Source of the DNA: Geothrix terrae
GTDB lineage: Bacteria; Acidobacteriota; Holophagae; Holophagales; Holophagaceae
DNA length: 39,740 bases
Direction of reading: 5' to 3'
NCBI RefSeq assembly: GCF_022808775.1
Contig: NZ_JAKZLA010000007.1
Location: forward strand, 1-39,740
Below, one piece after another: positions 9,009 to 33,849 of the stretch (position 1 is the first letter of the stretch; every line of letters starts with the position of its first letter). Made by a program: the position numbers and the translations under genes. The notes under the pieces are model-generated. The model was not told where the DNA came from. It worked only from the letters and a program-made list of their open reading frames with translations, and searched no databases.

Positions 9009-9316
9009 GGTTCGCTCCAGATGAAGTTGGCGGAACCTTCGATGAACGGCGCGCGGCGGGATGGTGCTTGGCTGCGGGCCTTGAGCAAAGACGGCGATGC
9101 CCCCGGAGCCGCGGCCCCGGGGAAGGGATCAGAGGTCGGTGACGCGGATCACGCAGGCACATGCACCGAAGGCCACCCCGCCACCCATCGGTGGAGGGAG
9201 CGGCCCAGCAAGGTGATTGGCGCTGCGGCGGAAGGCGTTTCGCAACCAGGGGCCTTTGAAGGTGGCGGGACCGCCCGAGGGGTCGGGCGGAAGGAATAAT
9301 CGTACCATGTCCAGAC
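9009..9316 (-). other. Long untranslated leader of rpoB
   Basis: About 310 bases between the rplL-distal hairpin and the rpoB start hold no credible gene. Open frames crossing it on both strands are extensions of neighbours or antisense shadows. Two further hairpins are visible. One is a perfect 8-bp stem with a 4-base loop at 9271-9290. The other is a GC stem at 9101-9122 (CCCCGG with CCGGGG). I do not see a convincing -35/-10 pair. The length and folding suggest a regulated leader or a processed spacer, as is known for the rplL-rpoB gap of some bacteria. Confidence 0.5.
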
Positions 9317-9360
9317 AAAACCGCAAAGCGCAAGGTGCAGGAGGCACCCCACGCTTTGCG
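9317..9360 (-). terminator. Terminator/attenuator between rplL and rpoB
   Basis: On the minus strand CGCAAAGCG (9360-9352) pairs with CGCTTTGCG (9330-9322). The inner arms (TGGGGTGC with GCACCTTG, using three G-U pairs) extend this to about 17 bp around a 5-base loop. The stem is followed by GTTTTGTCT. It starts 18 bases past the rplL stop. Because rpoB and rpoC lie just downstream, partial read-through (attenuation) is the likely purpose, as in E. coli. Confidence 0.8.
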
Positions 9361-9378
9361 TTAGTGCAGGAAAAGGAA

Positions 9379-9756
9379 CTACTTGATCTCGACCTTGGCG
9401 CCAGCGGCTTCGAGCTTTTCCTTGATCTTCTGGGCTTCGTCCTTGGCCACGCCTTCCTTGACGGGCTTGGGGGCGCCGTCAACGAGGTCCTTGGCCTCCT
9501 TGAGGCCCAGGCCGGCGACGATCTCGCGGACGGCCTTGATGACGTTCAGCTTGTTGGCGCCGGCGTCAGCCAGGATGACGTTGAATTCCGTCTGCTCTTC
9601 GGCAGCGGCGGCCGGGGCGGCGCCGCCGGCGGCGGGAGCAGCCATGGCGGCGGCGGAGACGCCGAAGCGCTCCTCGAGGGCCTTGACCAGGTTCGCCAGG
9701 TCAAGGACGGTCATGGTTTCGATCTCAGCGATGAGCTGGTCGGCGGTGAGAGCCAT
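9379..9756 (-). CDS. rplL: 50S ribosomal protein L7/L12
   Basis: 125 residues, normal length. The N-terminal dimerisation segment (roughly 1-33) is followed by an alanine/proline/glycine hinge (about 34-53). The conserved C-terminal factor-binding domain runs from about 56, including the [11 protein letters not shown] and [12 protein letters not shown] segments. It forms the ribosomal stalk with L10 and recruits translation GTPases. The start is ATG at 9756 with GTAGGAGG upstream. It lies 47 bases after rplJ in the same operon, and the long stem at 9317-9360 follows it. Confidence 0.97.
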
Positions 9757-26483: not shown

Positions 26484-27521
26484 CTATCGGTAGCGAACGG
26501 CCCCGGCGCCCTTCACCAGCCGCCCCAGCACCCAGGCGGGCTCCTCGTCGGCGTGGAGGTGGGCCAGCACGTCGCCGGCCAGCTCGGGCTTCACCACCAG
26601 CACCATGCCCACGCCAAGGTTCAGGGCCTGGCGGGCGTCGTCGATCCCCAGGCCGCCCTTGGCCATGAGGAAGCGGAACAGGGCCGGGATCTCCCAGCTG
26701 GCGGTGTCGATCTCGGCATCCAGCGTCTTGGGCAGCACGCGGGGGATATTGTCGGTCAGGCCGCCACCGGTGATGTGGGCCATGGCCACCAGCTTGTGCG
26801 CCTTCACCAAGGGCATGACTGGCTTCAGGTAGCTGCGGTGGATGGCCAGCAGGGCGTCCGCCACCGTCCGGTCCATCCCGGGAAGGGTGTCCTTCACGTC
26901 GAGCTTCTCCAGCTCGAAGCAGACCTTGCGGGCGAGGGAATAGCCGTTGGTGTGCAGGCCCGAGCTGGGCAGGCCGATCAGCACATCGTCCTCGGCCATG
27001 GCGTCGAGGCGCGGCAGCAGGTCGGCCTCGTCCACCACGCCCACGATGGTGCCGGCCACATCCACTTCGCCCTCGGCATAGACACCCGGCATCTCCGCCA
27101 GCTCGCCGCCGATCAGCGCTGAGCCCGCCGCCTGGCAGGCGGTGGCCATGCCCTTGACGATCTGCTCGATGACCTCGGGCTCCAGCCGCTGGGCGGCGAT
27201 GTAGTCCAGGAAGAACAGGGGCCGGGCGCCCTGCACCAGGATGTCGTTGATGCAGTGGTTCACCAGATCCTGGCCCACCGTGTCCCAGATGCCGGCCCGC
27301 CGGGCCACCTTCATCTTGGTGCCCACGCCGTCCATGCTGCTGACGAGGATGGGCTTGGCCTCGGGGAACTGGGCGCTGTAAAGGCCGCCGAACAGGCCGA
27401 TGTCGCTGCGGACGCCGGGGGTCTTGGTGGCCTTCACCAGGGGCTTGATGCGCTTCAGGGCCTCGTCCTGGCGGTTGATGTCCACGCCGCTGGACGCGTA
27501 GCTGACCTTGGCTTCGCTCAT
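26484..27521 (-). CDS. purM: Phosphoribosylformylglycinamidine cyclo-ligase (AIR synthetase)
   Basis: 345 residues, standard length. ATG at 27521 (MSEAKVSYASSGVDI) has GAGAGG upstream. It makes aminoimidazole ribotide from FGAM and ATP, step five of purine synthesis. The family's VSSMDGVGTKM is at 60-70, followed by GGLTDNIPR and the LNLGVGM segment near the C-terminus. The usual partner purN is not adjacent. It is divergent from folE with a 91-base gap. Confidence 0.96.
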   Translation of the reverse strand: MSEAKVSYASSGVDINRQDEALKRIKPLVKATKTPGVRSDIGLFGGLYSAQFPEAKPILVSSMDGVGTKMKVARRAGIWDTVGQDLVNHCINDILVQGARPLFFLDYIAAQRLEPEVIEQIVKGMATACQAAGSALIGGELAEMPGVYAEGEVDVAGTIVGVVDEADLLPRLDAMAEDDVLIGLPSSGLHTNGYSLARKVCFELEKLDVKDTLPGMDRTVADALLAIHRSYLKPVMPLVKAHKLVAMAHITGGGLTDNIPRVLPKTLDAEIDTASWEIPALFRFLMAKGGLGIDDARQALNLGVGMVLVVKPELAGDVLAHLHADEEPAWVLGRLVKGAGAVRYR

Positions 27522-27597
27522 GACCTCTCCCGAATCCCCCATGATCCCACAGGCGGCATTTCGGGCCGATGCCAAACCTTCCCAGGCCGCCCGGGCG

Positions 27598-27603
27598 TAG
27601 ACT
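27598..27603 (+). promoter_or_regulatory. -10-like TAGACT just before folE (possible leaderless start)
   Basis: TAGACT ends 9 bases before the folE ATG, and no Shine-Dalgarno sequence is visible between them. This spacing would put the transcript start at or within a few bases of the ATG. No good -35 is seen. Confidence 0.4.
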
Positions 27604-27612
27604 GACCGGACC

Positions 27613-28188
27613 ATGGCCGACTCCCCCGTCCCGTCCTTCGACCGCGCCGCCTCCGAGGCCGCCGTCCGCGCCCTGCTGCGGGGCCTGGGGCAGGATCCGG
27701 ACGCGCCGGAGCTGCAGGAGACGCCCGCCCGGGTGGCGGAGTTCTGGGCCGAGCGGCTGGCGGGCTACGGCGTGGACCTGGCCGCCGAGCTGAAGCCCCT
27801 GCCCGGCGACCTGGCCCCGGTGCCCATCATCCTGGAGCGCATCCCCTTCGTGAGCACCTGCGAGCACCACCTGGCCCCCTTCGAGGGCCACGCCACCATC
27901 GGCTACCTGCCCGCCAATCCCCCTGTCGGTGGTGGCACCGTGGGCCTGTCCAAGCTCGTGCGCGTGGTGCAGGCCTACGCCGCCCGCCTGCAAGTGCAGG
28001 AGCGCATGGCGCGGCAGATCGCCGACGCCCTCCAGACCCACCTCCGCCCCGCCGCCTGGGGCGTGGACCTCGTGGCCGTCCACACCTGCATGGCCCACCG
28101 CGGCGTCCGCACCCCCGGCGTCCCCGTGCGGACCACCCTCCTGGGCGGCGCCTGGGAGACGAACCCGCCCGCACCGTTCAGGGGCTGA
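27613..28188 (+). CDS. folE: GTP cyclohydrolase I
   Basis: 191 residues. It converts GTP to 7,8-dihydroneopterin triphosphate, the first step to folate and, in some bacteria, queuosine or biopterin. Zinc ligands are clear: C83 and H86 in TCEHHLAPF, and C159 in HTCMAHRGV. GTVGLSKLVR (108-117) and the QVQERMARQIADAL helix are family hallmarks, and the enzyme is complete. The ATG at 27613 lacks a Shine-Dalgarno site and follows a TAGACT box closely, so it may be translated from a leaderless mRNA. Confidence 0.95.
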   Translation: MADSPVPSFDRAASEAAVRALLRGLGQDPDAPELQETPARVAEFWAERLAGYGVDLAAELKPLPGDLAPVPIILERIPFVSTCEHHLAPFEGHATIGYLPANPPVGGGTVGLSKLVRVVQAYAARLQVQERMARQIADALQTHLRPAAWGVDLVAVHTCMAHRGVRTPGVPVRTTLLGGAWETNPPAPFRG

Positions 28189-28235
28189 TCTGCCACCGTT
28201 CGGCGGAAGCCGGCCAGGATGATCCGGGCCCTGGG

Positions 28236-28241
28236 TATGCT
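28236..28241 (+). promoter_or_regulatory. -10-like TATGCT upstream of the first Fn3 lipoprotein gene
   Basis: TATGCT lies 31 bases before the ATG at 28273. The same hexamer lies 32 bases before the paralogous gene at 31008, each time downstream of shared CGTTCGGCGG and GGCCAGG blocks. The conserved placement supports a promoter. Confidence 0.45.
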
Positions 28242-28272
28242 GGGTCCGCTGTTCCCGGACCCGGAGATTCCC

Positions 28273-30264
28273 ATGACGCGCGCCCTCGGCCTCGGCCTCG
28301 GCCTGGCCTTCTGTCTGATGCTGCTTGGTTGCGGCGGGGGTGGCGGATCCTCCAGCCCCGCCACACCCGGGGCCCCCCAGCTCAACGCGACCTATGACCC
28401 CTACAAGGTCGAGATCAAGCTCACATGGACCGCAGCCGCCAGCAATATTGACGGCTACAGCCTGGAATACAGCTACAACTCCAGTGCCTATGCTCCGATC
28501 AACCAGACTCCGATCTTCGGCGGCGTGACCTCGGCCTCCCTCACGTTCACGTCAACGCCTCCCGAACTCGGGGTCTTCGATTTCCGGATCTGCAGCGTCT
28601 GGAATGGCGCCAAGGGGCCCTATTCCAACGTCGCGGAGATCAAGATTCCGATCGCCCCGCCGCCGTTCCTGGACGCGGTGTACTCCGCCACGGATGGGGG
28701 TGTCCACCTCAACTGGGCGTCGCCCTCCCTCCTCGCCGACCATAACGTCCTGGAGCGGGCTCCCTGTGACACCTCCGGCCACGTGTCCGGCTCCTGGTCC
28801 AGCCTGCCCCTGCCGTCTCCGCTGACGTCCACCTTCCTGGACACAACCGTGGTGGAGAGCCAGGGCTACCTCTACCGCGTCACCGCCTGGATGGGAACCC
28901 TTCCCAGCCCGACGACGGGTCCGACCCTCCCGGTGGTCATCCCGCCCCTGCCGCCGGTCTCCTTCGCCGCCCAGGCCCTTCCTGGAACCGTGGGGCTCAC
29001 TTGGGTGAACCAGAGCAAGACCGTCACCCAGATCCAGATCATCCGCCGCGTCCCGGGAATCCCGGGGACGACCGTCGTCCTCGCGACCCTTCCGGGCACC
29101 GCGACCACCTATCAGGACACCGGCCTCGCGCTCGGCTACTACGGCTACAGCCTCAGCATCTCCGATGGACGTACCACCGTCACGACCCAGGAAATCCTCG
29201 CGGCTCCGGCCAATCCTCCCGGGTCCCCCACCCTGACGGCGGCCACCCTGGCCCCCAGCCCGTACACGAGCGCCTCCGCCCTTTCCCCCAACGGCCTCTG
29301 GGCCTTCGGCACCCGGACGCCCTTCACGGCCCTCCCCGCCGACTGGGGAACCTGGCCCGCCTGGTCGCCGGCCAGCATGTTCTCCGCACCCGCCGAATTC
29401 CTGCAGTTGGACGCCCAATCCCGGCCGCACGTCCTCTACCAGAGCCAGACCTCCGTGGCAGATCTCCTCACCCATGCCTGGTTCGATGGCAGCACCTGGA
29501 CCACCGAGGTCGTGCAGACAATGCCCACGACCAGCAACGTCCTCGCCACCGCCTTCGCCCTGGACAAGACGGGCGCGCCCCAGGCGCTCCAGGACACGGG
29601 CCCAGGCGGCACCCTCGCCGGACTGGTGTACTCCCACAAGGTGGCGGGGGCCTGGATCCAGGAACCCCTCGACCCCTCGGCCGGGACGACCACCTTCCTT
29701 GGCACGCCGACCCTCTTCCTCGACGCCTCGGACACCCCCCATGCCCTCGTCGCCTCCTGGTCCAGTGCCCAGGCCCCCATCCGCGAGTACACCCGGAACG
29801 CCAACGGCACCTGGACCTCCCAGATCCTGCCCAACCCCCAAACTTCCGGTGGCTTCTACCATTTCCAGGATGGCGTGTGGGCGGACGCGGCCACGGCCTG
29901 GGTGGCCTACCAATCCTCGGACCCCAGCAACCCCTCGAACGATGGCTTCTGGGTCCAGCGGAAGGTGGCGGGCGCCTGGCAGCCGCCCATCCTCCTCAAG
30001 TCGTATCTGCACACGGGCACCCCGATCGACGGGATCACTCTGTCCCCGGATGGGACGCGGGTCGCGGCCGTGTTCAACACGACGAGCGGCCTGTACCTCA
30101 ACACCTGGACCGCCACGCAGGGATGGGTCGAGTGCCTGCTGCCGATCCCCCCGGACACCCAGCCCTTGCCCTACCTCAAAGCCGCCTTCGACGGCGCGAA
30201 CCACCTGCACATCCTGGTGAAGCCTTCCATCTTCAGCGGAAACCTGGTGGACCTGCACGAATGA
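28273..30264 (+). CDS. Lipoprotein with three Fn3-like domains and a propeller-like C-terminus, paralogue 1
   Basis: 663 residues. The lipoprotein signal (1-20) ends in lipobox LLGC with a following Gly/Ser linker. Three Fn3-like beta domains lie at roughly 28-125, 128-223 and 224-312; markers are LTWTAAASNIDGYSLEY, NVLERAPC with YLYRVTAW, and GLTWVNQS with TTYQDTGLALGYYGYSL. The C-terminal half has five repeats of a strand motif: LDAQSRPHVLY, LDKTGAPQALQ, LDASDTPHALV, LSPDGTRVAAV and FDGANHLHILV. These alternate with G-x-W strands such as DGSTWTTEV and AGAWIQEPL, suggesting a beta propeller. It ends VDLHE. A surface or periplasmic binding role is inferred; no enzyme motif was seen. GGAG lies 6 bases before the ATG. 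Confidence 0.75.
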   Translation: MTRALGLGLGLAFCLMLLGCGGGGGSSSPATPGAPQLNATYDPYKVEIKLTWTAAASNIDGYSLEYSYNSSAYAPINQTPIFGGVTSASLTFTSTPPELGVFDFRICSVWNGAKGPYSNVAEIKIPIAPPPFLDAVYSATDGGVHLNWASPSLLADHNVLERAPCDTSGHVSGSWSSLPLPSPLTSTFLDTTVVESQGYLYRVTAWMGTLPSPTTGPTLPVVIPPLPPVSFAAQALPGTVGLTWVNQSKTVTQIQIIRRVPGIPGTTVVLATLPGTATTYQDTGLALGYYGYSLSISDGRTTVTTQEILAAPANPPGSPTLTAATLAPSPYTSASALSPNGLWAFGTRTPFTALPADWGTWPAWSPASMFSAPAEFLQLDAQSRPHVLYQSQTSVADLLTHAWFDGSTWTTEVVQTMPTTSNVLATAFALDKTGAPQALQDTGPGGTLAGLVYSHKVAGAWIQEPLDPSAGTTTFLGTPTLFLDASDTPHALVASWSSAQAPIREYTRNANGTWTSQILPNPQTSGGFYHFQDGVWADAATAWVAYQSSDPSNPSNDGFWVQRKVAGAWQPPILLKSYLHTGTPIDGITLSPDGTRVAAVFNTTSGLYLNTWTATQGWVECLLPIPPDTQPLPYLKAAFDGANHLHILVKPSIFSGNLVDLHE

Positions 30265-30269
30265 CCCCT

Positions 30270-30300
30270 GGGCGGCGGACTCACCGCCCCGCTCAGCGGG
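30270..30300 (+). terminator. Possible terminator after paralogue 1
   Basis: Two overlapping stems: GGGCGG (30270-30275) with CCGCCC (30284-30289), and CCCGC (30288-30292) with GCGGG (30296-30300). They start just past the stop codon and are followed by T-rich but not T-only sequence. The stretch to 30382 is AT-rich and holds no other gene; it may contain the promoter of the next one. Confidence 0.35.
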
Positions 30301-30382
30301 TGATTCCATATCGTTTGTTCGTTAGATTTACTCCATCAACCGGGTTGTCTTATCACTAAATTTCATCCCAAGGGAGACCTAC

Positions 30383-30841
30383 ATGAAGATGCCAGGCGTC
30401 ATCTCTGGTTCCATTTGTCTATTGGCATCTACCGCCTGCATTCCGCCCATTCCGGATCTGACCCCGAAGCTATACCTTCACCCGGTCAAAGGCCCCATGG
30501 TCAATCTGCACCCGAACGCGGCTATCACTGGATTCTCAACGGGAATCGGCTCGGGCTCGATATCATTTCAATTACCCAGCGGAGAATCATGCAAAGGGCC
30601 ATGGGAGCCCATCCCTCAGGACCAAGCAGATTCCAACCTAGCCAGCTACTGGGATCTTGTTTATGGCGAGGGCTATTTCACCAGACACGTCCTCGGATCC
30701 AAGTGGCGCGGTAAATCCAAAATTACGGGCGACAAAGGTTCCGAGTTTCAGTTGGAATTCTATCGTGACACTCCCAAAGATTCGCCGTTGCTCGGCGTGG
30801 CAAAAGATACGGCCGGTAACGTTTACAAAGTGACCCAATAG
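30383..30841 (+). CDS. Small exported protein or lipoprotein of unknown function, atypical base composition
   Basis: 152 residues starting MKMPGVISGSICLLASTAC, a short signal with a possible but non-canonical lipobox (STAC). The mature part (PPIPDLTPKLYLHP onward) has mixed beta-type sequence, ending DTAGNVYKVTQ. I do not recognise a family. AAGGGAG lies 6 bases before the ATG. The gene and its upstream 80 bases have roughly 50% GC by eye, against about 70% in the neighbours. Codons such as AAA, TTT and ATT are frequent. It sits between two paralogous lipoprotein genes, which suggests insertion into a duplicated locus or retention of a foreign cargo gene. Confidence 0.65.
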   Translation: MKMPGVISGSICLLASTACIPPIPDLTPKLYLHPVKGPMVNLHPNAAITGFSTGIGSGSISFQLPSGESCKGPWEPIPQDQADSNLASYWDLVYGEGYFTRHVLGSKWRGKSKITGDKGSEFQLEFYRDTPKDSPLLGVAKDTAGNVYKVTQ

Positions 30842-30969
30842 GCTCGATCCCCCCCCTCAGCCCCACCCGCATAACCTCCCTCCCGGGAACCCCTGGCCAC
30901 CGGCCCGACCATTCGCCACCTGAAACCGCCCGTTCGGCGGTGTGGAGGCCTCCGGAGGCCAGGTGCCGA

Positions 30970-30975
30970 TATGCT
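30970..30975 (+). promoter_or_regulatory. -10-like TATGCT upstream of the second Fn3 lipoprotein gene
   Basis: TATGCT lies 32 bases before the ATG at 31008, matching the position before paralogue 1. Upstream are CGTTCGGCGG (30931-30940), a 14-base perfect palindrome GGCCTCCGGAGGCC (30947-30960) and GGCCAGG (30957-30963). The palindrome is absent before paralogue 1. Confidence 0.45.
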
Positions 30976-31007
30976 GCTCCCAAATGTCTCTATCTATGGG
31001 GAATGTC

Positions 31008-33008
31008 ATGAATCGGATCTGGGGCCTCAGCCTTGCACTCGGCCTGTTGCTCACCGGTTGCGGTGGGAGCGGCGGCGGCGGAACCACCTCCGCTCCCCCG
31101 GTCCCCGCAGGCCCGGCAGCCGTCCAGCTCCAGGCCACCTATGATCCGGCGCAGGTCCAGGTCACTTTGACGTGGACGCCCCTCTCCACCCCCATCGATG
31201 GGTACAACCTCGAAGCGCAGGTGAATGCAGGCTCCTTCACCCAATTGAATGACACCCTCATCCCGGCGGCGGCCACGGGCCTTCTCGTGACCTTTACGTC
31301 CAAACCTCCGGAGCTGACGAAGATCGGCTTCCGGGTCCAGGCCGTCCGGAATGGGATCGGCGGTTCCTTCTCCAACCTCGCCGAGATCCACATTCCTCTG
31401 GAGGCTCCACAGACGATCTCCGCCTGGTACTCGGGCTCTGATGGAGGCGTCTATGTGTCCTGGGACACGCCGTCCCTCTTGGCAGACCGCTACGTCCTGG
31501 AACGGGCCACCTGCGATGGCGCGGGTACGATCACCGGGCCCTGGACGGCGCTCTCGATGAGCTATGCCCTCGGGTCCCACTACACGGACGCCAACCTGGA
31601 CGAGACCTTGCAGTACCGCTATCGCGTGACCGCGTGGTCCGGTTCCACGTCGAGCAGCACGACCGGGCCGACCCTGCCCGTGGCCATCCCGCCTCTCGCC
31701 CCCACGGGACTGTCGGCGCAGCCGCTGGCCAATGCGATCGGGCTCAGCTGGGTCAACCGGAGCCAGGCTGCCACCCAGATCCAAGTGTTCCGGGGCGGTG
31801 TCGGAACCGCCAACACCCTTCTGGCCACCCTGCCACCCACGGCCACGAGCTACCAGGACACGGGGCTTTCGCTGGGCTACTACACCTACACCCTCGTGGT
31901 CACGAACGGAACCCTGTCCACCACCGGCCCCTGGATCACCTCGGCCCCCATCAACCCGACCGGGGCGCCGACCCTGGCATCCACCCCCATGGCAGGCAGC
32001 CCCCAGACCGACGTCGCGGCTTTGTCTCCGGCCGGCCTCTGGGCCCTTGGCGTCACCTCGCCGCTGGCCATCCCCGCCACCACCTGGGGTAGCTGGACCA
32101 GCTGGACCGCCCCGACCGCCGGCGGAGGAGCCTACGCGGTGACGGCCCCCCTCGCCCTGGGCCCCCAGTCGAGACCCCACACGATCTACCTGGCCACCTC
32201 CTCCATCGCGGAGGACCTGACCCATGCCTGGTTCGATGGGACCACCTGGCAGTCCGAGGTGATCCGTCACCTGGCCACCTCGCCGACCTACACCTTCCCG
32301 AGTGCCACCTTCACCCTGGACCAGGCCGGGATACCCCGGGTGCTCGAAGACACGGGCGCCACCAAGGGGTCCTTCGCCGCTCTGGCCCTTCATCAATGGA
32401 TCAATGGGGCCTGGACCCAGGAGCCCCTGTTCCCCGGCGGCGCAACCGACTGGTACACCGGCACACTGCGTCTCTCTGTGGATCCCGGCGACACGCTGCA
32501 CGCGCTCATCCCCACCTGGTACGATCTGCGGGCCCTCGACCGCCATGCGGACGGGACCTGGTCCGCCCAGACACTGCCGGACACCCGCCCTTGGGGGGGC
32601 GGCTATGCCTTCGCCGACGGGGTGTGGGCGAGCACCGACACCGCCTGGACGTTCTTCCAGGTCGCCGACGCGGCGAACCCGCTGAATGACGCTTTCTGGG
32701 TGCTCCCAAAGGTTGGAGGCGCGTGGCAGGCCCCGACCCTCCTGCGGTCCTTCCCCCACATGGGCATCACCCAGGCCAGTATTGCGTTGAGCCCGGATGG
32801 CACCCGCGTCGCGGCCGTCGTTGCCACGACGAATGGCCTCTACCTCTACACTCAGACGCCCCAAGGCTGGGTGGAGAGCCTTCTGCCGATCCCTCCGGGC
32901 GACCTGGCCTATCCGTATTTCAAGGTCGCCTTCGACGGAGGCAACCATCTGCACATCCTGGTGAGGCCCTCCGCTTACAACACGGCCATGGTGGACTTGC
33001 ACGAATAG
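31008..33008 (+). CDS. Lipoprotein with three Fn3-like domains and a propeller-like C-terminus, paralogue 2
   Basis: 666 residues, collinear with the gene at 28273. The signal ends in lipobox LTGC (Cys18) with a Gly/Ser linker. The three Fn3-like domains follow the same order, with LTWTPLSTPIDGYNLEA, YVLERATC with YRYRVTAW, and GLSWVNRS with TSYQDTGLSLGYYTYTL. The five C-terminal strand repeats are LGPQSRPHTIY, LDQAGIPRVLE, VDPGDTLHALI, LSPDGTRVAAV and FDGGNHLHILV. The shared ending is VDLHE. Identity to paralogue 1 is around half by eye and spread along the whole length, so this is a full-gene duplication with time to diverge. GGGGA lies before the ATG at 31008. Confidence 0.75.
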   Translation: MNRIWGLSLALGLLLTGCGGSGGGGTTSAPPVPAGPAAVQLQATYDPAQVQVTLTWTPLSTPIDGYNLEAQVNAGSFTQLNDTLIPAAATGLLVTFTSKPPELTKIGFRVQAVRNGIGGSFSNLAEIHIPLEAPQTISAWYSGSDGGVYVSWDTPSLLADRYVLERATCDGAGTITGPWTALSMSYALGSHYTDANLDETLQYRYRVTAWSGSTSSSTTGPTLPVAIPPLAPTGLSAQPLANAIGLSWVNRSQAATQIQVFRGGVGTANTLLATLPPTATSYQDTGLSLGYYTYTLVVTNGTLSTTGPWITSAPINPTGAPTLASTPMAGSPQTDVAALSPAGLWALGVTSPLAIPATTWGSWTSWTAPTAGGGAYAVTAPLALGPQSRPHTIYLATSSIAEDLTHAWFDGTTWQSEVIRHLATSPTYTFPSATFTLDQAGIPRVLEDTGATKGSFAALALHQWINGAWTQEPLFPGGATDWYTGTLRLSVDPGDTLHALIPTWYDLRALDRHADGTWSAQTLPDTRPWGGGYAFADGVWASTDTAWTFFQVADAANPLNDAFWVLPKVGGAWQAPTLLRSFPHMGITQASIALSPDGTRVAAVVATTNGLYLYTQTPQGWVESLLPIPPGDLAYPYFKVAFDGGNHLHILVRPSAYNTAMVDLHE

Positions 33009-33129
33009 CTCTGCAGCCCAGGAAAGCCCCCCAGGCAGGAGGTCCGAGTCCCGGCTCGCCCCTCCAGACTCGAGGACTGCACCGGAGGATGGACAGGCCC
33101 TGACGCATCCCTTCCGCTACCCTTCTGCC

Positions 33130-33447
33130 ATGTCCCTCCCCACCCCTGAACTCAAGCTCGGCTATGAGCTGTTCTCCAAGCTGCTGACTTGGGCGGCGGG
33201 GAAGCGGCAGTCGAAGCGGCTGGAGGCGCTGAAGTCGGCGGCCTTCCAGGAGCTGCTGAAGGGCGACGCGGCGGATCTGGATCTGGTGGCCTCGGTGCTC
33301 AAGGAGATCCACAAGGCGGCTGACACCTCGGCCAAGGCCGTGCGCCTGGAGCACCTGTACGACCGGGCCGCGGCCCCCGTCCCGGTCAAGGGCGGCCGCA
33401 AGTCCGACCGCCGCAAGCCAGCCAAGAAGGCGGGGTCCAAGGGGTAG
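33130..33447 (+). CDS. Small helical basic protein of unknown function
   Basis: 105 residues, predicted mostly helical (LKLGYELFSKLLTWAAGKRQ, then a Lys/Ala/Leu-rich middle). It has a strongly basic tail (GGRKSDRRKPAKKAGSKG) that could contact nucleic acid. There is no signal peptide and no recognised domain. The ATG at 33130 has no Shine-Dalgarno site, and TACCCT ends 6 bases before it, so a leaderless start is possible. It stands alone between the lipoprotein pair and an AT-rich gap. Confidence 0.6.
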   Translation: MSLPTPELKLGYELFSKLLTWAAGKRQSKRLEALKSAAFQELLKGDAADLDLVASVLKEIHKAADTSAKAVRLEHLYDRAAAPVPVKGGRKSDRRKPAKKAGSKG

Positions 33448-33549
33448 GGTGCAAGGTGTTTAAATAGGTAAAAAATCGCCATTAAACTCAATATTTTGCA
33501 TTTTTTCCACGACACCTATCCTTGGGGTGTATCTGTCCATGGAGGATGC

Positions 33550-33849
33550 ATGCATTACCTCCTGATCTACGAGGTCGGTCCAGAATATGTGGATCGCCGG
33601 GGAGAATTCCGGAAGGAGCACCTGGCCCTGGCCTGGGCTGCCCACGAGCGGGGCGAGTTGGTGCTGGGCGGGGCCGTGGCGGACCCCGTGGACATGTCCA
33701 TCCTCCTCTTCCAGGGGGACTCCCCCGCGGCGGCCCAGCGCTTCGCCGCGGCGGATCCCTACGTGCTCCACGGGCTGGTGCATCGCTGGCAGGTGCGCCC
33801 CTGGATCACCGTGGTGGGCGCGGACGCGGCCACGCCGGTGCACGCGTAG
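33550..33849 (+). CDS. YciI-like protein
   Basis: 99 residues from ATG at 33550, with GGAGG 5 bases upstream. The frame's earlier ATG lacks a ribosome site. The ferredoxin-like YCII fold is suggested by MHYLLIYEVG at the start, HLALAWAAHERGELVLGGAVADP with the conserved His and Asp, and the LHGLVHRWQVRPW strand at the end. The biochemical role of the family is poorly known. The upstream 100 bases are AT-rich. TTGCAT and TATCCT spaced 15 bases apart (33496-33522) may be its promoter. Confidence 0.75.
   Translation: MHYLLIYEVGPEYVDRRGEFRKEHLALAWAAHERGELVLGGAVADPVDMSILLFQGDSPAAAQRFAAADPYVLHGLVHRWQVRPWITVVGADAATPVHA

Follow-up and report, generated by a model that had tools for sequence, protein, structure and literature searches.

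Fn3-stalked lipoproteins with a predicted seven-bladed β-propeller head in Geothrix terrae and its family

In bacterial surface proteins built from fibronectin type III (Fn3) repeats, and in Fn3-bearing carbohydrate enzymes, tandem Fn3 domains serve as a spacer before a functional domain. The PLL lectins are seven-bladed β-propellers that bind sugars between the blades, and PLL3, a monomer of 40.4 kDa, consists of the propeller (PMC6943638). The polysaccharide lyase (PL) families PL24, PL25, and PL42 have a common His-His-Asp triad, given for FoRham1 as Asp83, His85, and His105 (PMC10951650), and the active site is placed on the anterior face (PMC8377490). Here, a stretch of 39 740 nucleotides of Geothrix terrae (contig NZ_JAKZLA010000007.1, positions 1 to 39 740), termed the window, was analyzed for two neighboring genes, P1 and P2, that encode paralogous lipoproteins with three Fn3 domains and a predicted propeller head. 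The parts of this architecture are known and their combination is apparently undescribed. P1 and P2 represent a family of lipoproteins, restricted to one lineage as far as sampled, in which an Fn3 stalk carries a predicted seven-bladed propeller, and they are most likely lectin-like adhesins or receptors. The architecture was not described among the best literature matches, and no publication joining Geothrix and 'fibronectin type III' was found, in searches whose coverage lay outside most subscription journals.

The fold of the head was predicted from AlphaFold2 models of P1 (28273..30264, + strand; 663 amino acids from the likely start, within an open frame of 681 codons from 28219). The full-length model was based on an alignment, A1, that holds 30 of 36 candidate rows; L047 (contig end), two pieces of L054 (broken frame), L052 (a near copy of L051), L058 (no head, contig end), and L060 (the most distant) were dropped. 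This model had a predicted local distance difference test (pLDDT) score of 90.6 and a predicted template modeling (pTM) score of 0.76, and the propeller modeled alone gave a pLDDT of 90.3 and a pTM of 0.90. The strand lists of both models, assigned with DSSP, fit seven blades, and the head is almost certainly a seven-bladed β-propeller as far as these predictions reach. It occupies mature residues 297–645 (29215..30261, residue 1 being at 28327), with blades 1–7 at 29272–29367, 29401–29523, 29548–29667, 29692–29826, 29863–30009, 30031–30138, and 30172–30258, and the strand at residues 304–308 (29236–29250) was taken as closing the last blade. Blade borders and blade closure were read from the strand list, in which blade 1 has a poorly formed strand D. 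The P2 propeller (31956..33005) was placed by alignment, P2 being row 2 of A1 and of the alignment used for the head profile, A2.

A first-pass annotation of this DNA had described five repeats in the C-terminal half and suggested a five-bladed propeller. The repeat is real but was under-counted, because the models show seven blades and seven AB-turns, which start at mature residues 319, 361, 412, 465, 518, 572, and 621 with a spacing of 42–54. The literal motif, [LF][DS]x4-6HA[LV], had a single occurrence in the C-terminal part of P1 and none in P2. A relaxed form of the motif was found five times in P1 and four times in P2 against 0.4 expected, numbers reached by 0 and 4 of 2000 shuffles, and GxW or GW occurred eight and seven times against 2.2 and 3.2 expected (reached by 4 and 53 of 2000 shuffles).

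The same annotation had described lipoproteins in which an Fn3 stalk carries the propeller, and the models and profiles support this arrangement, though not the number of blades. Both genes are collinear open reading frames (ORFs) on the + strand and encode proteins of about the 665 residues first reported, P2 (31008..33008) having 666 amino acids from its likely start within an open frame of 688 codons from 30942. By inspection, a lipobox Cys ends the short hydrophobic N terminus of each protein. Direct reading places the P1 signal peptide at 28273..28332 (lipobox LLGC, lipid-bearing Cys codon 28330–28332) and that of P2 at 31008..31061 (lipobox LTGC, Cys codon 31059–31061), and lipidation of both as bacterial lipoproteins is predicted from these sequences. 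Three Fn3 domains per protein, as originally proposed, were located by profile matches at 28372..28647, 28648..28932, and 28942..29214 in P1 and at 31119–31394, 31395–31679, and 31689–31955 in P2. P1 and P2 are 48–51% identical in every domain. The shared VDLHE ending that had been noticed is present at both C termini and is a trait of the closest relatives; only its Glu is invariant among the 30 aligned relatives. The annotation had proposed looking for further copies in the genome. A P1 search at E up to 1 and a search with the head profile recovered P1 and P2 only, and a search of the genome with the stalk alone likewise gave no protein other than these two.

The A1 profile matched Tenascin-R with an E value of 3.1e-14 over columns 3–294, spanning all three Fn3 domains, and the Pfam fn3 model matched nine of the 30 members at E up to 1 (best 3.8e-7). 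PF00041 matched nothing in the genome, P1 and P2 included, and P1 and P2 searched singly gave no Pfam fn3 match. A complete head was present in 32 of the 36 open frames scored, always as the last domain, and was preceded by three Fn3 domains in 26, by four in three, and by seven in three; some open frames have a long N-terminal stretch that may not be protein and may instead reflect an unread start. The four other frames, L047, L058, and the two pieces of L054, are the incomplete ones mentioned above. The versions with seven Fn3 domains are those at L040, L041, and L042, where stalk length varies by domain number and the head stays single. At L054:4379-7002, five Fn3 domains are followed by a head split over two frames, which may be a decayed gene or a sequencing error.

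The remark of the first-pass annotation that this is not a named family held in the profile searches: P1 and P2 had no significant Pfam match (best E 3.5), no Pfam model covered the head in the 30 relatives, and no NCBIfam model scored better than 0.048 in any of them. At E up to 10, Pfam BNR_4 matched four of the 30 relatives (best 0.0045). In a Foldseek comparison of the head with the Protein Data Bank (PDB), the CV39L lectin ranked first (E 1e-8), followed by a pseudaminidase, PLL lectins, BT3686, and sialidases, the best rows having query TM-scores of 0.48–0.60. VIA listed PLL2 (Z 22.4, 288 aligned residues, 3.6 Å), BT3686 (21.9), BACINT_00347 (21.5), and FoRham1 (21.2), and its alignments to the seven-bladed lectins take in nearly all of the domain. 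With the full P1 model, Foldseek returned mainly Fn3 rods, and VIA again listed PLL and BT3686. Within the limits of prediction, the fold class can be regarded as secure, but the subclass of propeller cannot. A phage origin was rejected, the PHROG matches being weak throughout (best 6e-5, one family in at most three of 30 members).

Three groups of described proteins come closest. The PLL and PHL lectins of Photorhabdus and CV39L of Chromobacterium violaceum are seven-bladed like the head, are its top structural matches, and have a Trp repeated from blade to blade. In the heads, each of blades 1–6 has a Trp, in strand D or directly ahead of it, that is conserved in 28–30 of the 30 relatives. 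P1 and P2 differ from these lectins in adding a lipid anchor and an Fn3 rod, in an identity of only 11–16%, and in giving no sequence match by profile. The PL42 and glycoside hydrolase (GH) family GH145 propellers BT3686, BACINT_00347, and FoRham1, together with BNR_4, are also seven-bladed and show weak sequence similarity to the head, the A2 head profile matching BACINT_00347 (GH145/PL42) at E 0.0011, partially and out of blade register, and FoRham1 (PL42) at E 0.4. They differ in their D-x-H...H triad, which is not conserved in the heads, and no Fn3 stalk appeared in the alignments or titles of the solved chains matched. The bacterial Fn3-repeat surface proteins and enzymes have the Fn3 spacer in common with P1 and P2, which differ from them by the terminal propeller and the lipid anchor.

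Kinship to a known enzyme, which the first-pass annotation had named as the finding that would speak against it, was examined and amounts to this weak similarity to PL42/GH145 propellers. Two candidate activities were tried and rejected. A D-x-H...H arrangement at about the triad spacing of a PL24, PL25, or PL42 lyase or hydrolase was found in six of the 30 heads, in four different places, and at columns 372–374, the presumed place of the triad as judged from the BACINT_00347 stretch, D-x-H was found in none of the 30. Sialidases carry the Asp box motif S/T-x-D-x-G-x-T-W, and for a GH33-type sialidase an Asp box was found in one of the 30 sequences.

Conservation was compared between the two sides of the head. 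The AB turns are five residues long in the 30 relatives, with a single six-residue case in blade 3, and the BC and DA loops vary in length, the BC loop from 3 to 17 residues in blade 7 and from 4 to 14 in blade 3. Mean conservation was 0.259 in the BC and DA loops (96 positions) and 0.428 in AB plus CD (62 positions), a difference reached by 0 of 10 000 permutations; among the seven closest rows the values were 0.430 and 0.557, respectively (again 0 of 10 000 permutations). No residue of the BC and DA loops was conserved in at least 27 of the 30 relatives. This variation is suggestive of a binding face. The chain enters at the presumed closing strand of the last blade, and therefore the conserved AB/CD side would lie toward the stalk and the variable BC/DA side would point outward.

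These data lead to the proposal, to which we give about an even chance, that P1 and P2 are lipoproteins of the outer membrane whose lectin-like head serves in binding, as an adhesin or glycan receptor. The N-terminal lipid anchor and the rod of three Fn3 domains would hold the seven-bladed head out from the outer membrane, with the stalk joined to the AB/CD side of the propeller and the BC/DA face pointing away from the cell. Relatives differ in sequence and length on the face taken as the outer one, as would be expected if it bound a different ligand in each, and the lectin-like head would tether the cell, without catalysis, to polysaccharide, to polymers of plants or soil, or to other cells. 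We infer the outer-membrane or surface location, the orientation, the sugar binding, and the adhesion from the architecture, and among the options of polymer, mineral, or cell binding offered at first, lectin-like glycan binding appears the best supported.

Several points weigh against this proposal. The nearness to lectins is unspecific, integrin alphaIIb-beta3 reaching a VIA Z of 21.4 and WD40 proteins 19.3–20.5, and the query TM-scores of the PLL and CV39L rows in Foldseek are only 0.52–0.60. When the A2 head profile was run against PDB sequences at E up to 10, nine sequences were matched and none was a PLL. The variable loops suggest and do not prove a ligand face, because loops are more variable than turns in all propellers and gaps lower the score of the loops, and the head orientation would rest on strand order and not on coordinates. 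The blade 2 cluster at 29428..29508, His368 (29428–29430), His383 (29473–29475), and Glu394 (29506–29508), is invariant in 30 of 30 aligned relatives and could be functional; from strand pairing, the three residues should lie on one face of the blade. The ratio of nonsynonymous (dN) to synonymous (dS) divergence was 0.35–0.55 between P1 and its relatives and 0.25–0.55 throughout, giving no sign of overall positive selection in these comparisons, and no experiment on any relative was found in the literature.

The two invariant His residues also count in favor of an enzymatic head, which would degrade polysaccharide at the cell surface as a divergent lyase or hydrolase related to PL42/GH145, PL24, or PL25. 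Among solved propellers, BACINT_00347 gives the best sequence link, with FoRham1 next, and the VIA Z scores of 21.0–21.9 to BT3686, BACINT_00347, and FoRham1 extend over 321–327 residues, against 286–291 for the lectins. However, the BACINT_00347 match is out of register, the triad is scattered, the BC and DA loops hold no conserved residue, and none of the 20 neighbor proteins scanned matched glycoside hydrolase, polysaccharide lyase, or sugar transporter families. A conserved lyase or sialidase site is improbable because neither the triad nor the Asp boxes are conserved; a binding head is therefore preferred, and an enzyme is considered unlikely. A binding head might also take protein or mineral and not sugar, as a scaffold for an envelope protein or for attachment to the iron oxides used in metal reduction, which is a possible, if doubtful, alternative. 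In its favor, propellers serve as platforms for interactions of many kinds, those of WD40 proteins and integrin come close to the lectins in score (VIA Z 19–21.4), and Geothrix is known for metal reduction; Geothrix and Holophaga appear in the electron-transfer and iron-reduction literature. Against this, the scan of the 20 neighbor proteins found no cytochrome or secretion family, no metal-binding motif was noticed, no search having been aimed at one, and the top Foldseek rows are carbohydrate-binding or carbohydrate-active.

Both kinds of ligand presuppose display at the surface, and P1 and P2 could instead be periplasm-facing lipoproteins with a housekeeping or envelope-structure role. We know of no surface-export signal for the phylum, and the Gly after the lipobox Cys fits plain outer-membrane sorting by the usual rule. 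The patchy presence of the family in related genomes, the change in stalk length, and the strong divergence of the copy in the window are unlike housekeeping envelope proteins, and this alternative is regarded as very unlikely.

The distribution of relatives was surveyed at several depths. A P1 search at E 0.001 matched 24 of 77 genomes of the same family, its own included, two of which (G059 and G069) matched only near the signal; an order-level search comprised 77 genomes as well, all from that family. The A2 head profile matched 31 of the 77, several partly and weakly. Of 396 genomes drawn from the phylum and searched at E 1e-5, with up to five candidates scored per genome, 30 matched, 14 within the family and 16 outside it, and the matches outside were weaker (best 2.2e-20) and extended over no more than portions of the head. 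In this sample, the Holophagaceae, the family of the window, are the only group with the complete head. Beyond the phylum, a few short peptide patterns were used for scanning. A first scan of contigs with P1 patterns gave 19 matches, none of them a relative, and a second gave five Geothrix records (fuzhouensis SG12, sp. SG200, paludis SG195, rubra Red803, and oryzisoli SG189). Three tandem copies of the family were seen at L049:4548-11242 in G065, which belongs to another genus of the same family.

Five relatives have one syntenic copy adjoining folE, some with further copies elsewhere. In the tree, P2 falls outside P1 and these five syntenic relatives (97/93), and it is therefore either an older copy lost elsewhere or one that arrived from outside. 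P1 compared with four relatives gave dN of 0.33–0.34 and dS of 0.62–1.0; for seven flanking genes in the same comparisons dN was 0.007–0.149 and dS 0.12–0.40. The raised dS of P1 suggests an older or imported allele, and not weak constraint alone. This excess divergence is shown for the copy in the window only, because none was found in dS for G012 against G013 (0.371; flanks 0.207–0.391) or for G004 against G013 (0.087; flanks 0.040–0.198).

The slot between folE and a 105-amino-acid gene (at 33130) spans 28188–33130 in the window and was also examined at loci L031–L035 and L105–L124. Both genes share a contig in 25 of the 47 genus genomes, and there the distance between them ranged from about 0.1 kb (G036) to 9.9 kb (G020), with a lipoprotein gene present in the slot in six of the 25; the folE slot is a site of gene turnover. 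A second, partial folE 3′ end was found in G012, G004, and G013, with 81%, 69%, and 70% DNA identity to the folE of the window; it lies immediately downstream of the lipoprotein gene and starts no more than about 15 bases from where that gene ends. These partial copies lie at L031:6976-7209 (a copy of 9194-9427, 86% over 234 nt), at about 6984-7169 in L033, and at about 7246-7450 in L034. No comparable second folE match (best E 0.01) was found in the window, in G008 or G014, or in 20 other folE stretches, one of which is cut by a contig end, and the partial ends appear to record a single duplication or insertion event in an ancestor shared by G012, G004, and G013. A polymorphic surface-receptor system, with diversified outward loops and the whole gene swapped, duplicated, and lost at the folE slot, is rather unlikely, this reading being weakened because the two species pairs show no excess divergence. 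If true, such a receptor would resemble surface antigens pressed by phages, predators, or competing strains, or self/non-self markers.

The gene neighborhood was examined at 26 loci (L036–L061), with neighbor ORFs picked by a rule based on GC content by codon position. No neighbor family recurred across unrelated loci as a conserved operon partner would, and the sole group found in 24 loci is the lipoprotein family itself. An alpha/beta-hydrolase-type neighbor group joins L037 to L048, L051, and L052. Nine of ten neighbors in the window matched known families (GTP cyclohydrolase I, YCII, DoxX, FMN reductase, beta-lactamase-type, acyltransferase 3, ScfRs-type regulator, PNPOx-type, and ferritin-like), and the neighbor at 33130-33447 gave no family match. 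Ten neighbors from four locus groups were of ThyX-type, transaldolase, HIT, DUF192, P5C reductase, alpha/beta hydrolase, DNA polymerase III alpha, and lactate/malate dehydrogenase families, with two tRNA synthetases. Between P1 and P2, and outside the architecture, lies a small, AT-richer ORF, absent from the remarks of the first-pass annotation, of 152 amino acids (30383..30841, + strand; about 50–56% GC) with a weak lipobox-like start and no Pfam match. It has matches in 13 of the 47 genus genomes, its own included, which lie also within the folE slot in G010, G011, G020, and G021 and elsewhere in the remaining genomes. No RNA element reached the gathering score in 27500–33600, a promoter scan gave 0 sites, and terminators were no more frequent than in shuffles.

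Acidobacteriota are common soil bacteria whose surface proteins have been little studied. The present family is well bounded and foldable and has carriers among named strains, and hence its ligand and its location are directly testable. The excess divergence of the copy in the window over its flanks hints at a surface trait that may differ between otherwise close species.

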